From Paralichthys olivaceus (lineage: Eukaryota > Chordata > Actinopteri > Pleuronectiformes > Paralichthyidae): 64,000 nucleotides of DNA. Below the pieces are notes generated by a model that was not told the DNA's origin, searched no databases, and saw only the letters and a list, made by a program, of their open reading frames with translations. The stretch lies in NCBI RefSeq assembly GCF_024713975.1, contig NC_091096.1:21698458-21762457 (forward strand). Direction: 5' to 3'. A program made the position numbers and the translations under genes. Of the stretch, positions 9,534 through 40,915 are shown in pieces; positions within the stretch are counted from its first letter, which is position 1; every line of letters begins with the position of its first letter.

Positions 9534-12500
9534 TCAGACGTCCACGGTGCAGAGAGGTTCGCTCCCTGGCTGGGCGGACTCCATTATTGTCATCTTCGGT
9601 TTCTTTCTTGTCTCCTCCTGGAATTAAATTACAATAAAATAACAATTAAGAATTTTTTTTGTTGGCATTCTCAAATGTGCAAATCTGCTGGTGACAATGT
9701 CATTTTGTGAAGCTGGGACTGACAGCTACACCAGTCAAGATGTTTGTTGTAATGCACTCTCTTCACCTCAGGCATTAAGTAAAGCTGCAATAAGACAGAG
9801 TCCCACTAATTGAGACCCTTCAGATTTACAGTTTCCCCTGATAGAGTTCAGGGCTTCATTTGGATTAAAACTACCACCTCAACTTCCCTTCAATGAGCTC
9901 TCTGGTGAGAACATTTCCATTGACGTGCACAAAGTAAACCCTTCAGGTTCTTATTGATGGAAAAAAAGATCAACGTGTCAGAGACAAACGCACATTTTAA
10001 ATTACTTTATACGAGAAGGCCACCACTCACAAAAACAAAAGGATTTAAGTTTTACGCTTGACAGAATAACAATACATTAGACAATATTTTCGACACAACA
10101 GAACTCTGCTCACCCTCTGCGTGGCCAGTTTCGTCATTTCTTCTTGCAGTTTGTTCAAGATGTGAAGGTTTGGCTTGTTCTTTTTGGCAAACTGCTGCAG
10201 CTCGATCACACTCTTGTCAGAGCTCTCCTGCAACAAATGACTTCAATCTTCAAGAATTCTATCGGTTCATCTCTCATAATTCACTGGCTGTTCTGAAGTG
10301 AGCAATGTTCACAAGGCAATGTGGAATCAACATGCCAGTTATAAATAAAATACCACGCTGATTGATGCCATACAGATGTTTTTTCAAAGAGACAAGTAAC
10401 TTGAGTGAGGGGGGTTTATGTTGAAAAGACATCTTGACAGCTTGAAAACACCATCGTCATCACCCGAATCATCCGCTTAAGATACAAATAAAGTAAATGT
10501 TTTCCAACGACCTCAGAGGCTTAACACTTAGTGCTGAAGACAGTTCTTACCTTCTTGACCATCTTATTGCTCTCTCGGCCATACATGCGCAGCAGTGAAC
10601 CCCAGTTCTTGACGTGGGGATGAAGCATCTGCAAGATCTTCTGAGACGCTAGTTGTTTGCCAACCCTCTTGTTCTTGCCTGTTGACAATTACAATAAAAA
10701 ACGTATCATCATGCGTTGCTAATGTGTCTGTTTGGTCTGTGAAAGACTAGCAAGCATCAAAACATCAGTCGCGATAATTCAAATAAAAAGAGAAAACTTG
10801 ACCTGAATGAAATGGCTTCTATAATGATATGAATGTCAAGAGTAAAACTTAAAGGGATGTACATTAGCATCACTTTGTTGTAAAAATTGTGCATTGAGCA
10901 ATTTAAGCTATGTAATCATATATTTTCAAAGCTTAAAAAAATTATCAAAACAGTTTAAATTCTGCACAATTCATGAAAAAAATTAAATTTGAAGTAAGAA
11001 CTGTATGTAATAATATCAAAATGTGCATAGTGAGGTGCAAGGTGTCGTTTTCAATGGTGAACCCCCTCTGAACCCAACTCTCCAGATTTTACCGTGAGAT
11101 CATGTGTGAAAACGGCTTGAGTGGTTCATCATTAGAATGTGGTTAAATGAGGTTCAACTTACACCAGCCACGCACAGTGTGTTTCCCACATGTCATCACA
11201 TATTCACTCTTCTGGTTTTTTCCTGGGATCACCTCAAACTTAATGCTAGTGTCTCCCATCCCATGGTTTCTTCAGGAAAAACACAAAAAGGACAATTTTC
11301 TTAATCAATGTTTGCGACCTGACAGAGAACAGCTTTTAGTGGCCATTATGAAATTGGTAGATGATTACACTGGGTCAATATTTAGGTTTTTGTTGGTTTG
11401 TGTGTTTCAGCCCTTACCTTTTAAGGCACTCATGAAGAATCTGATATGGTGAAAGTAGTCCTGCTTTGTTGGTCAGCTCATACACCCTTGAGTCTTCTAT
11501 ACTGATATGATTAAAATACTGTGGGACAGAGCACATTGAATTATCGGTGAATTATCTCTAATTTAAAACAGTGTATTTACAAAGTTGAGCTTCATCATTC
11601 CATTTGACTGAATATGAAGAACAGGAAAAAGAAAGGTACCTCCAGTTCATCGCCCTCCACAGGCTTCTCCTCCGAGGTCTGCTTCACAAAGTCAGGGATG
11701 AGGATTTCCAGTGTGGCTCGAGCTGCAGTGTACATCATAACACCAGTGAGAACAGAAGTAGTATTACAACAAGTTACCAGTGCAACCATCTACTATTTAT
11801 AGTAAGAATTTGAAGGTATCACAAAGATAACTAGCTGTGAGGTGAGAGGAATATTATTATACATATGAATTAATAGTATTAAAGTATTATACACGTCTGA
11901 CACTGATCACATTGCTTAATACTGTAAATAATTAAAATTACCAGCTTTATTCTTGGCAAGTTTTTTACTGCTTGCTGTTCCTGTGCCGTACGTCACTCCA
12001 TCTATAATGACTGACGCTCCAAAGGGTTCACTTGGGTTCTCTGTGAAGCACAAAAATGTGGTTCATTTGATTTGAAAAGCTTGTAAAACTAAACATGTGA
12101 CCTGTCATTTATAAGAAACAACAGCCAGACTTATGTGTGTACACGTGCAAACATGTGAATGCTACAGGGGTAATGTAAATGTAGACTTGGTTGTAGATGA
12201 CAACAGAATGAACATGAGTAGATTTTCGGATGATATTCAACAGAGAACCTCGGCTGATGATACTTACCACATTCAAAAAAGTTGTAAACAGGTCGAACCT
12301 TGAGGACACGTTGCATATATTCGTGCAAGATGCAAACTTCAGATTTTCCATTGGGGTTGATGACAAATTCTGTTAAAAGAAAATGTATTGAAATTTGAAA
12401 AACCTTCATCAACATTACAGTTATCAGAGACTTGATTTCCGACCTTTCTTCAAAAAGATAAAAAGAGGTTAACTATTCTGTTAGTTTGCTTAAAGAATTT

Positions 12501-15500
12501 CAAAATGATTCTTGCCTATGTCATCATATATACATAATATGTCATGTATTGTTCTTCTGTGCTTTAACAGTTCGAGAGTTAACCATGGAGTTATGTGGTA
12601 GAGTCATTAGTCATATTAGATACTATGTGCAATAAAAGACTGGTAATAAAAAAAAACATGAATTGTGTTGTTACCTTTCTTAGTGGGAGCATCTTGGACT
12701 GACAGTGTGATGAGTTTCTGGTTGGCGGGAAGGATGGGCCTCTCTGACTCTGCCTGCTTCCTCTTCATGTCTCTGTTGAACTGCCTTCGCTCAGCCCATG
12801 TGCGAAACTTCTTGACAGTAACTTGTTCAAAGTCAAAGCATTTTTCCAGATACACACGAAACTCTTCAAGTTCTGTGAAGAGGTTTTATCAAGTAAGTTC
12901 ACTAAGTGCCAAAAAGCAACAAAAAAATAAGAACCTTTTTCAAAGTCTTTCACTGCCAATATACTACGACAAGCTCTTACCTACTGACTCGTCCTTGCAC
13001 ACTTCCACCTTGGCCTTGACTTGGCCTAAGGCTCCTTGGGCAGTGTCAAAAGCATGATTCACTTTAACCTGCAGGTTGTTGTCAGTGGTACTCTCTCCAT
13101 TTGGGCCACCGTCAGTCAAAATGGAGGGAGGGGCGTCTTCCTGCTCCTCGGCTGCAGCATCCGACTTGCCTGCTCCCTCTTCACCATTAGCCTCCTGCAT
13201 GGGCTTTACTGGAGACTCCACTGCATTAAGTGTCATCTCCCCGTTCAGCTCCCTTTCCTCATGTTCCTTCATTTTCTTGTAATGTAGGCAAGGGATACTG
13301 CTGGTGGGTGGGTCATGTTTCTGTATCAAAAAGAATGAAGAGTGAGACGAGAGAGAATATGTCAACAGTTCCACTACATACCTGACTTTAAGAGCTAAGC
13401 TGCAATGTTTAAAAAGTTAATGTTTCCAGGGGGGTAGACTATCTGCTGAACACAATTTCTTTCCCAGCAGCATTGCCTTATTTCACACAAGCACAAACCC
13501 CATTGAATCTAAAATTCCCCCTGAATGACAATGTAATGTCAAATATTAGAATCAGATTGGCAAACACATTTCTGAAGGAATAATACAGAGATCTTGATGA
13601 AAAACAGGAGGAATATTTATGGAACTTATGTCTTTAAGTGTGTGTACTTTGGTATGGCTGGATTGAATTTAAAGTTACTTAAAAACACATCAGATCTCAA
13701 AGTCCCAGTTCTAGTTTGCAGATGTGAAGCAGGATGTACAGTGAGGAGAACAGCTGGTGTGTGGTGTAGTAGCTGCTAACATGACGATTTATCACCACAT
13801 GATTACTTTTCTTTCGAAAGAGTTGGGTGGCCTCTACAAAACCATCGGAAAAAGATTTAAGAAATACAGACATGAATAGAACATAATTTTTTGGCACATC
13901 CTGGATGAGTCTCAGCACAAAGCCCATAATTTCAAGGTCTACATGCCACTTGAGTTCACCTAAACTGATTTAACTGGTATCAGGAGTAAAATATATTACC
14001 AACAATTTGGTTTAGAGAGCTGACATGGATGGGGACTCAATTAATACTATGAGAGTATGAGGTACTATGCAGAATACCACATCAGGATGATGTGGTATTA
14101 AGGAATACATTTGTGTTGCATCTTACCCTAATACTGCCAGTCCCGAGGAAATATGGTCTGGACCATGTGACCACTCTGGTTTCTCTGTGTAGGTAGACTG
14201 GAATGCCTGAGTTATGGAATGTCATGATCCATCCATCAGGTAGAGGCTCAGTGGGTGGACGCCCTCGACCTGGCATATGGATAAATGCAAATGCAGGCAC
14301 AGATTACAACATTGTTACATCATGTGGTTAAGTGATGCGGATTCAATGTTAAAACTGTTTTTTTTATGTTGGGTTTAAGTTTGACAATCTTGTATGGGAA
14401 GGTTAAAACCCACCTTGGAGATAAAAGTGCAATAAGTTATGAACTTCTGTTACCTGTGACTATCAACTTTAAACTAAAAATAACAAAGTACTTCACACTA
14501 CAAGCATATCAAAGGTGATAATTCGCCTGTAGTTTTATTTTTCTTTATACCATCACATTGAAAAATACAATTTGGATTCTCATGTTTTAAACAAGGTTTT
14601 TAGAATCAGGATCACTCGTACCAACTGATCATAGTTTGATACTCTTGAGCTTTTCAACTGTGATACTACATCTGAGCACTACAGCACAGAACAAAGGTTT
14701 ACCTACTTTCGTTGAGCAGGTCTTACCACCTCTGCAAACCAATATTCTGGGGGAAACCTTGGCTGATGTAATCTATATTGGCAGTGCACACAACCATACA
14801 CTATTGTTCTATTCAACTTGCTTCAAAATACACATATGTACCACATACTGAATAAATATGTTGTGCCCCTCAGAACTGAAGCTACTTTAAACTGCAAGTT
14901 TGCTAATGGAGCCCAACCCTAAAACAGACAGATCCACCACTCACTCTTCAGGACAGTCTTAATTTTGGTCATCATAGGCTGAACACCTCCTTCTTCACCA
15001 TCTGACTGATGATCACTGTCCCCACCATATTTGTCCTCAGATGGACGCATCTTTTTTGGCACTGGCATGCCCTCCTCCAGCAGAGCGTCAACATCGTTGT
15101 CAAACTCCTCCTGGAAGAGTTAGTGGTTAAGGCCGGGGGAGAAGGATGGGTCACAGGTTTACAGGAATTTTTTGTTTCACCTGAGAAGAGACTTCACCTG
15201 ATGTGATGAATAAACTGAGCATTGGAGAAAGAAAAAAACAAAACTACACTTCAACTACAGCAAAAATTACCAGTTCAACTTTTGAATTAGAAAACAAATG
15301 ATATGAATCTACAAACAATATATAACAATTAAATAATGCATTTGGCATTTCTAAGCCCTCAATTTTAATATTGATTAACTTGTCTATACAGGAAACCCAG
15401 CATTTACTTGGGAAAATAAAAAGGGCACTGACCTCCTGTAGTATCTCACTTGTTATTTTCAGAAATAAAAAAAACAAGAGATAAAGAAAAACTCAAATTT

Positions 15501-17768
15501 ATTTAAATGTATGTTACCTTATGGGACATTTGATCCTTATTTAATCTACTGATGCAGAAAAGTTCTTCAATGTTGCAACAGAAATCGTTGTGATCACTTT
15601 TTTTTTTTTACTGGCCAATTATGCTACATCCAATTTATAGTTTCTGTCATTTATCACTACTGCCAAAAGCTACACTATACACTACCAATTTCAAGAATAA
15701 ACCGTTCATGCTACTTGCCTCAAGTACGTCACCACAATATTATTCTGCACTTAGCATTTGGAAAAATCTGGCAGTTGCACTTTGGTTAATCTCTAGAAAC
15801 AGATTATGCGCCTGAATATGCAGTTTCTAATTCGATTAATCATGTTTGAGCAGGCTTTGGTTGCCTGCAGGTAAACAGTGTAGAGAGAAAAAGAGGCACA
15901 ACCCATGAACAGAAATGCATCAGCTATCTGCTTTTTAATGTATCTGTATTCATTTGCAGAAAGCTGTTAACAGAGATCAGCCAAAATGTCATCCAGACCA
16001 ATAACATCTAAAAAAAGTATTTCTGTTTTGAGTGGAGAAACATTCAACCTGTGAGATAAGTGGAACTAGTCGGACAGTAAACAGTACGGTGAACAGAAGA
16101 TAAGAGTCTTGGCCTGGATATCGGTTGCCTACACCAGAGGCCCCAAAATATCGGCTGTTGGTTCCAGAGGCTAATTCCTCGTCAGACGATAGCTGATGGG
16201 ATTGCAAAATATTTCTCTGTGTGTACACCAAGCATTACAGTGAGATGTGTAAATGTATCTATAGATACCACAACTTTGTGAACAAGAAAGTAGTGGCCAT
16301 TGAGATTTTTACCCAATGTAGTTTTTTTATGCTTTGATGGCCTCAATCTCAATGCCAATGGGTTACATCGTAACTGGTTAGTGGCATAAAGCTGCATGGA
16401 AGCAATTTCATCATCTTCATGCTACATACGGGTTGGGGTGCTTTTTTATCAAGAGTGACCTGTCATCACCAAAACATATTCGCTACAAGACACAAAGTTT
16501 ATGGAAGTCAATTTGGGAAACCCCAAAAAACCCACTTAAAAGAAATCAATGCCTCTAACATTATTCTTTGTCTCCCTCGGGTTGAAAACTCCACTGACTA
16601 AGAAACACTGGTTTGGAGCATTTTCTCCATGTATTAGTGAGAGGACATGTAATTCAATCTGAGTAATATAGGATTTATTTGTCAGTCAGTCTATAGTCAG
16701 TCAGTTTGTGAGAATGTTATCAAAGCAGCAATCATTTTCTCCATACACTAAAAACATTATAGACATAAAATGCCAAATAATTTTTTCATATGATCCGATA
16801 TCTGATTGGCCTAATATTGCAGCCAAAATGGAGCACGGTCAATCTTTGTTCCAGACATTCTTAATGTATATTTTTTGTCTGCCCCCCATTGTGCCAACAC
16901 AGTCCTCATATTGAGACGATAGGTGAGGCTGTGTAATAGAACAGGGCTATTGTACTCTATTGTACTGTACAAACTGTACATACTATATCATTATAATGTT
17001 ACTGTTTAATAGGGATGAAGAAATTGTGTGTGTAGCTGTCAATGAAAATGGATACTGCAAACACAAGAGCAGACGTACCTCATATGAGAAAGCCACGGCC
17101 TCGTCACCTGCTTGCTCCTGCTGAGCTATGACCTCAGACTTAAAGCCGCCATGCTCCCCATCGTCGTGATCCAGGAAGTTCTCGTAGAAGTCCTCCAACT
17201 CATCCAGAACAGCATACTCTACCTTGTTTTCCAGATCTACCTCAGTCTCCTCTGACCTCATGCATATGTTTCCTGCTCCAGAGCTTCCCTCAGCTGCCTC
17301 CTGCTCACTAGTCGAGTCATGCAACTCACCGTTCAGACCGTCTAAGCCATTATCACTCCCTCCCTCCTGCCCTTCACCTGTGTACAGAACCTTCCTGTCT
17401 TTACTATTGCTGCTGCTGCTTTCAGTGAAGCTCACACGGATCTTAACATCTCTGAGCAGCTTGAGGTCTGGTAGAAACTTGGTGACCGGGGGAGCGTGAC
17501 GGGCTGTTCTTGGGCACTGTGGGTTGGGACTGGCCTCATCTGAGAGGTGGCTACAGAAAGTGACTGAGCCCTTGCTGAGGGGCTGCTGTGGCTGGGCTTC
17601 CCCGTCCCCTGGGGTGTATATGTATCCATCACCACCAGAGCTAACGTCCATTACCTCTGCGTCACTGGACGTTTGCAGGGGAGGTGGTGGAGGTGCTCTG
17701 CCCTCATCTCGGCCAAAATCATCAGGTGGCTCCAAGGGGAGAGGGGGTAGAACATCATCTATCTCCAT
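9534..17768 (-). CDS. dgcr8: Microprocessor complex subunit DGCR8, 13 coding exons
   Basis: Nuclear double-stranded-RNA-binding partner of Drosha that recognises pri-miRNAs. Coding exons, in transcription order: 17768-17079, 15110-14945, 14269-14127, 13320-12981, 12872-12675, 12369-12268, 12040-11942, 11722-11640, 11518-11418, 11269-11163, 10678-10551, 10227-10114, 9617-9534. All have GT-AG borders and consistent phases, totalling 2355 nt and 784 aa (human 773). Parts: a proline/acidic N-terminus; a WW domain ~293-325 (W299, W321); a heme-binding IPCLHY motif with Cys344, equivalent to human Cys352; dsRBD1 ~513-588; dsRBD2 ~626-696; a C-terminal Drosha-binding tail ending LCTVDV. The ATG at 17768 is preceded by an in-frame TAG, and GTG/AAG codons just upstream are not used. 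The transcript carries two self-targeting hairpins in exon 2. Confidence 0.98.
17625..17695 (-). ncRNA. mir1306: miR-1306-type hairpin inside the dgcr8 coding sequence
   Basis: On the minus strand the 5' arm at 17666-17687 (CCACCTCCCCTGCAAACGTC plus CA) is identical to human miR-1306-5p as I recall it. The 3' arm at 17630-17647 (ACGTTAGCTCTGGTGGTG) differs at one base. The arms pair across the loop AGTGACGCAGAGGTAATGG. The same bases encode [19 protein letters not shown], which is nearly the human protein, so RNA structure and protein are selected together. Microprocessor is known to cleave this mammalian hairpin to repress DGCR8 mRNA. Whether a stable miRNA is made in this fish is not shown. 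Confidence 0.9.
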
Positions 17769-18032
17769 CTTAGCCACTACAACATATACTGACTAATAAT
17801 ATAGTAGAATAAAATCTGACCTGTAGAAACTTCTTTCTTAGCTAATTCCACAATTCATGCAGAAGCACATCCCTGTAAAGACCACGTACCAGAGGAGAAA
17901 ATGCTAAGCTGACTACATTGTTCTTTTCATTAATGTAGACAGCTTTCAGAATCACTGTCTCAATTATTGGAAATCACAATGCATTCAGCTTAATATGGGA
18001 TCTAGGCACTGATCATCCTCCACTGGGATCTT
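17769..18032 (-). other. dgcr8: dgcr8 exon 2, 5'UTR part
   Basis: The exon begins at an acceptor with a good pyrimidine tract (CTCCTCCAGCCCCTAG on the minus strand, AG at 18034-18033) and continues into the coding part without a break. It contains the miR-3618-like hairpin and, just before the start codon, a minimal uORF ATG-TTG-TAG at 17785-17777. Confidence 0.75.
17900..17950 (-). ncRNA. mir3618: miR-3618-type hairpin in the dgcr8 5'UTR
   Basis: The minus-strand segment 17920-17941 (TGTCTACATTAATGAAAAGA plus AC) matches human miR-3618 as recalled except for one base near its end. The stem is 14 bp with one mismatch: + strand AAGCTGACTACATT at 17906-17919 pairs with AATGTAGACAGCTT at 17932-17945. 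It lies in non-coding exon 2 sequence 140-180 bases upstream of the start codon. In mammals this 5'UTR hairpin is the main site of Drosha cleavage of DGCR8 mRNA, giving negative feedback. Confidence 0.88.
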
Positions 18033-18466
18033 CTAGGGGCTGGAGGAGAGGACCAGAGAGAATACATGTCAGTACAACTTTGTGACTAATGGCCTAATAA
18101 GACTGCGTATTGTACCTATTAATATTCTGACTTTAACATGGAGCTGCTGACAGACGACATTCATCTGGGTCTCTTAGCCTGGGTATAGGATTCATGTTAA
18201 CCCTGATCCATACCACAAGCTAATTTAATGTTTTATAATCACGAGACAGCTACTTGTTTTAGCGCATCTGTTCAGACTGCAGCTGCACAGCGGGGCCCTG
18301 GTGACGTTCACATCCACGATGATGTGCTAGCAAGCAACCACCGGGATGTCTACGTCCGCAGAAATGCTAAGCTAGGCTAAACTCAGACAGGTAAGGCATC
18401 GGATAAATACTCACCGATAAATATGGCACGACTGTCTCCTACTCGGCGCCTGACTACCTTTCTAAA

Positions 18467-21489: not shown

Positions 21490-40915
<19,426 letters not shown>

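Follow-up and report, generated by a model that had tools for sequence, protein, structure and literature searches.

The dgcr8 gene of Paralichthys olivaceus very probably carries the self-control cassette of vertebrate DGCR8 (we put the probability at about 0.87), with a mir-3618 hairpin in the 5'UTR and a mir-1306 hairpin in the coding part of one and the same exon, both of them presumptive Microprocessor substrates. As far as sequence comparison can tell, both hairpins are held as RNA structures: the 5'UTR hairpin (hairpin A) has undergone compensatory changes and the coding hairpin (hairpin B) has frozen silent sites. Element and circuit are both known already, and the fish adds a further vertebrate to them and not a new kind of system; what is added here is the partner hairpin with its compensatory changes, a codon-level test, a limit to the argument from stability, and, for a fish, a predicted firm-plus-weak architecture.

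The dgcr8 gene and its exon 2

The window (the whole stretch of DNA that was analysed, 64000 bases) holds the features listed in Table 1. Judged by its sequence, the gene that houses hairpin B is dgcr8 with an intact frame. Residues 34-773 of human DGCR8 (chain 6lxd_B) align with fish residues 25-784 in a single stretch (E 0), and the fish protein has a dsrm match over the Pfam cut-off (86.6 bits, in two stretches); the matches to WW (24.6 of 26.9 bits) and DSRM_2 (23.3 of 27) lie below theirs. The edges of exon 2 were taken from the sequence alone, as the AG just upstream and the GT just downstream. With these edges both hairpins share one exon, A before the start codon and B soon after it, which is the layout of the DGCR8 autoregulatory cassette. 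Hairpin A is separated from the ATG by 136 nt and from hairpin B by 210 nt, and hairpin B starts 74 nt downstream of the first base of the ATG. The 5'UTR part of the exon (17769-18039, minus strand) also contains seven upstream ATGs, three of which lie within hairpin A.

Table 1. Features of the dgcr8 locus, in window coordinates
Feature	Position	Strand	Remarks
dgcr8 coding sequence	9534..17768	-	13 coding exons that encode 784 aa; GT..AG introns; frame free of internal stops
dgcr8 exon 2, holding hairpin A in its 5'UTR part, the start codon, and hairpin B in its coding part	17079..18039	-	splice signals AG/GT
dgcr8 start codon	17768	-	in exon 2
Hairpin A, mir-3618 precursor (RF04152)	17905..17992	-	110.4 bits, E 1.2e-25; non-coding, 5'UTR, same exon as mir-1306
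Hairpin B, mir-1306 precursor (RF01014)	17623..17694	-	102 bits, E 3.8e-22; first coding exon, within codons 25-49
miR-1306-5p arm, 22 nt	17666..17687	-	same 22 bases as in the rat and pig miR-1306-5p of PMC3314633
miR-1306-3p arm (rat ends)	17627..17648	-	one base unlike the printed rat arm, G to A
Peptide 86-116, like the human DGCR8 fragment of PDB 7cnc	17421..17513	-	E 3.5e-9; 26/31 identical; same exon

Two Rfam matches

When all 64000 bases of the window were scanned with Rfam at the curated cut-offs (70 for RF01014, 99 for RF04152), two minus-strand matches reached the gathering score, and both lie in dgcr8 exon 2. Each covers its model completely, mir-1306 over positions 1-72 of 72 and mir-3618 over positions 1-88 of 88. 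The initial annotation had placed a miR-1306 hairpin inside the coding exon of a fish dgcr8, and the RF01014 match within the 784-residue frame bears this out; that picture of a lone coding hairpin was incomplete, since it missed the 5'UTR partner, mir-3618, which carries the compensatory changes. Matches on the opposite strand (36.9 bits for mir-1306, 56.5 bits for mir-3618) fall at the same places and below the cut-offs, and were set aside as mirror images of the stems. A chance origin of the hairpins was rejected on the strength of the Rfam scores over cut-off and of the fold z values relative to shuffled sequences.

A single copy of dgcr8 is suggested by the genome-wide counts of the two hairpins, its one line of support: across 588 Mb in 25 contigs, one locus lies above the cut-off for mir-1306 among the 60 of 130753 candidates that were scored, and one for mir-3618 among the 54 of 104616 that were scored. 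Exact searches with the 5' arm gave 0 matches in viral contigs (30-mer) and 0 in genome contigs (25-mer), and yielded no second fish dgcr8.

Conservation of the coding hairpin

Two further claims of the initial annotation, made relative to human miR-1306, are that the 5' arm is identical and that the 3' arm is one base off; both agree with the printed rat sequences. The fish 5p 22-mer, besides being identical to rat and pig (Table 1), apparently recurs in a review on human vesicles and is contained in the chicken mimic printed in PMC6628503; the single change of the 3p arm relative to rat replaces Gly with Ser and lies at an unpaired mismatch. Over the rat pre-mir-1306 printed in PMC3314633, 67 of 73 bases are identical to the window. 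The 72 model positions hold five rat-to-fish changes. A pair of them lies at the 5' end, a third is near the 3' end, a fourth is at a mismatch, and the fifth affects a base pair; this last change turns U-G into C-G and so keeps the pair, while the bases at the other four have no partner in the fish fold. Relative to the RF01014 consensus, four bases differ, all of them in unpaired columns.

The codons are conserved as well. Among the 20 silent-capable codons whose residue is shared by rat and fish, 19 are identical, and these lie in both arms and in the stretch between them. If fish-rat silent sites are assumed to be saturated, this comparison, which is made with one rat precursor, would be expected to give 5.8 identities with dgcr8's own codon usage (P about 6e-11) or 5.9 with equal codon usage (P about 3e-10). 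With a fixed chance of a match per codon, P is 0.008 at 70%, 0.07 at 80%, and 0.39 at 90%. Measured against rat, the comparison supports the view, already put forward in the initial annotation, that the silent sites of hairpin B are held.

Folding of the coding hairpin

The 72-nt hairpin B has a minimum free energy (MFE) of -31.0 kcal/mol and a z of -3.96, with 0 of 200 shuffles equalling it. The 88-nt stretch around it gives a z of -2.35 (5 of 200 shuffles equal), and the 121-nt stretch, 17600-17720 (minus strand), the folding of which had been proposed as a check, gives only -1.58 (16 of 200); in it the inner stem persists and the bases of the basal part pair elsewhere. Folding the opposite strand of these 121 nt gives a near-equal fold (z -1.68); because the stem is palindrome-like, both strands fold alike, and the strand is therefore set by the gene and not by folding. 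Among 511 segments of 75 nt, taken in steps of 5 across the exon-2 UTR and the coding sequence, the one with the lowest energy starts 73 nt into the coding sequence.

Taken by itself, stability says little in favour of hairpin B, since 240 of 5000 synonymous recodings of its peptide fold as well or better. The native pairs survive less often: in 149 of the 5000 recodings the MFE fold retains 80% or more of them, and none can form all 22. In these model folds, then, the specific structure of hairpin B is rarer among recodings than is its stability. The best fold of the rat precursor has the same inner stem, with a basal part that is paired differently from that of the fish. Over five sequence contexts the predicted pairing probabilities are 0.79-0.95 for the inner pairs of hairpin B and 0.12-0.35 for the outer ten (0.22-0.27 for the outer ten in a further, 541-nt context). 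The position rules for UG and CNNC place UG 14 nt ahead of the 5' cut and CNNC 16-18 nt beyond the 3' cut; relative to the predicted cuts, hairpin B lacks both motifs at these places and has them at 11 and 13, respectively.

Compensatory changes in the 5'UTR hairpin

Because hairpin A is non-coding, it is a cleaner witness of selection on RNA structure than hairpin B. It is identical to the Rfam consensus at 78 of 88 bases. Seven of the 10 differing bases are in paired columns, where they make up three double changes of C-G to U-A and one change of G-C to G-U, and all 31 of 31 pairs stay standard, as scored against one Rfam consensus rather than a set of species. When ten random transitions were made in each of 200000 draws, all pairs were kept in 5071, three or more double changes arose in 323, and both outcomes occurred together in 45; when seven transitions were forced into paired columns, all pairs were kept 4192 times and three or more doubles arose 113 times. 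The fold of hairpin A has a z of -6.18, although its energy of -32.8 kcal/mol falls short of the stability of the Rfam consensus (-38.3). Its predicted mean pairing probability in one 541-nt context is 0.96. By predicted pairing in the exon context, hairpin A is thus firm and hairpin B is weak at its base. The earlier proposal that selection acts on an RNA structure in addition to the protein draws support from the two hairpins together, through the codon test in B and the compensatory changes in A.

The peptide encoded by hairpin B and a possible ERH connection

The peptide encoded by hairpin B is identical to human DGCR8 at 20 of 24 residues; the next 37 fish residues have 8 identities, and the first 24 residues of fish dgcr8 are unaligned to the human chain. 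The peptide is a conserved island in a diverged N-terminus, an arrangement that fits selection on the RNA holding the protein sequence in place, and one that would clearly exemplify how the structure of an RNA can constrain a protein. The peptide may also be conserved for a function of its own.

Further along the same exon lies peptide 86-116 (Table 1), which resembles the DGCR8 fragment of 7cnc, the structure of the complex of this fragment with ERH. PF01133 (named ER), the ERH family, has matches at two places in the genome (C12 and C19), some of which run through stops at the edges of the match; the two are perhaps a teleost duplicate. Both parts that cluster assistance would use are therefore present, the PF01133 matches in the genome and, in fish DGCR8, the 7cnc-like peptide, to which ERH would bind.

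Alternative explanations

Could the protein account for the conservation by itself, with a functional peptide and an incidental hairpin? In favour of this, 240 of 5000 synonymous recodings fold as well, so that a stem is promoted by the Pro- and Gly-rich codons as such. It would, however, leave 19 of 20 codons equal to those of rat (P about 6e-11 under saturation, 0.008 at a 70% chance of a match), and it has no bearing on hairpin A, which is kept as well and is non-coding. Given the codon test, the recoding test of structure, and hairpin A, constraint by the protein only was rejected as very improbable. Some other constraint at the nucleotide level, exerted for instance through a splicing enhancer, the binding of a protein, or control of translation, might hold the sequence instead, and the position of the exon at the 5' end of the message, with its seven upstream ATGs in the 5'UTR, makes this conceivable; yet the changes track the hairpin, with four of the five rat-to-fish changes unpaired and the fifth keeping its pair (a weak argument, as the changes are so few), and we regard this explanation as extremely improbable.

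A different proposal accepts selection on the RNA and assigns it to the product: hairpin B would be held for mature miR-1306 acting on other mRNAs, and control of dgcr8 would be a side effect. The 5p arm is indeed identical to rat at 22 of 22 positions, Tollip is given as a target of miR-1306-5p in a chicken study (PMC6628503), and mature miR-1306 is described as the more abundant of the two microRNAs (PMC7160132). However, the codons of both arms and of the stretch between them are held, and not those of 5p alone; hairpin A is held by structure too, even though 166 of its 184 reads from HeLa and HepG2 were nuclear (PMC2736397); and PMC3314633 and PMC4855716 have few miR-1306 reads in rat kidney and tilapia gonad, respectively. 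This proposal is unlikely, and the self-control cassette is the reading that is followed below.

Proposed mechanism

If the fish cassette works as mammalian work would have it, abundant DROSHA-DGCR8 would bind hairpin A and would then be passed from A to B with the aid of ERH and/or SAFB2. Cutting of the dgcr8 message by DROSHA-DGCR8 would lower DGCR8 until balance returns, and miR-1306 would be a by-product of this cutting. For this fish we infer Microprocessor cleavage of the dgcr8 message by analogy, from the mammalian experiments together with the fish papers that name miR-1306.

A broader reading, which is tentative and to which we give a little less than even odds, takes the exon as a whole control unit made up of a strong hairpin, a weak hairpin that senses the level of DGCR8, and a peptide that binds ERH, the factor described as handing Microprocessor from one hairpin to the other; not the hairpins only but also the sensor would date back to the bony fishes, and a stretch of protein with little other need of conservation would have been fixed by the hairpin. 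As the hairpins are found in a ray-finned fish, they are expected to be older than the split from mammals, and the self-control circuit itself is probably old. Zebrafish or medaka would be a plain living-animal system for the mammalian model of cluster assistance.

Relation to known systems

The hairpins of the mammalian DGCR8 exon were reportedly found to be cleaved by Microprocessor in work by Han et al. in 2009. In mammals, Microprocessor cuts both DGCR8 hairpins and the message is destabilised, as Shenoy and Blelloch (2009, PMC2736397) describe. The fish exon is like the mammalian one in having a 5'UTR hairpin and a coding hairpin together, and it differs in being a fish case known through its sequence only. 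The initial annotation overstated surprise and novelty, given that the mammalian circuit dates from 2009 and that MIR-1306 is already known as a curated, DGCR8-exon-encoded family. PMC3675212 states that human DGCR8 houses both microRNAs and that mir-1306 occurs in the human, mouse, and chicken gene.

A 2026 commentary (PMC13041536) describes miR-3618 as the optimal hairpin and miR-1306 as a conserved suboptimal one, which is cut when DGCR8 is high in a manner that is SAFB2-dependent in one study and ERH-dependent in another. By predicted pairing, the firm A and weak B of the fish would match this optimal-plus-suboptimal description, and the likeness to ERH/SAFB2 cluster assistance lies in a firm hairpin beside one with a weak base, 210 nt apart. 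In mammals the strong-A and weak-B labels are not simple, because the abundance data conflict: mature miR-1306 is said to be much more abundant than miR-3618 (PMC7160132), whereas the HeLa and HepG2 libraries had 184 reads from the 5'UTR hairpin versus 4 from the coding hairpin (PMC2736397).

In fishes, published papers name miR-1306 in tilapia gonads (PMC4855716, where no sex-exclusive miRNA, miR-1306-5p included, was above 15 reads), yellowfin seabream (PMC7461063), medaka (PMC12896521), and bichir fins (PMC4927183). The Prost! paper on stickleback and zebrafish has no miR-1306 ('1306' occurs in it once, within a number in the reference list), and the review MicroRNA in Teleost Fish has 0 occurrences of '1306' at the start of a word. 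A literature search of mostly open papers found no account of the two-hairpin cassette in fish dgcr8, from which absence is not claimed.

Neighbouring loci

No Rfam match to mir-185 reached the gathering score in the window, and its mature sequence was unmatched there at up to 3 mismatches; in human, mir-185 lies in an intron of TANGO2. A Pfam match to TANGO2 lies at 23446-23808 on the minus strand, and an RRM-domain reading frame, which looks like trmt2a, lies at 2281-2970 on the plus strand. The order tango2-dgcr8-trmt2a would resemble that of human 22q11.2.
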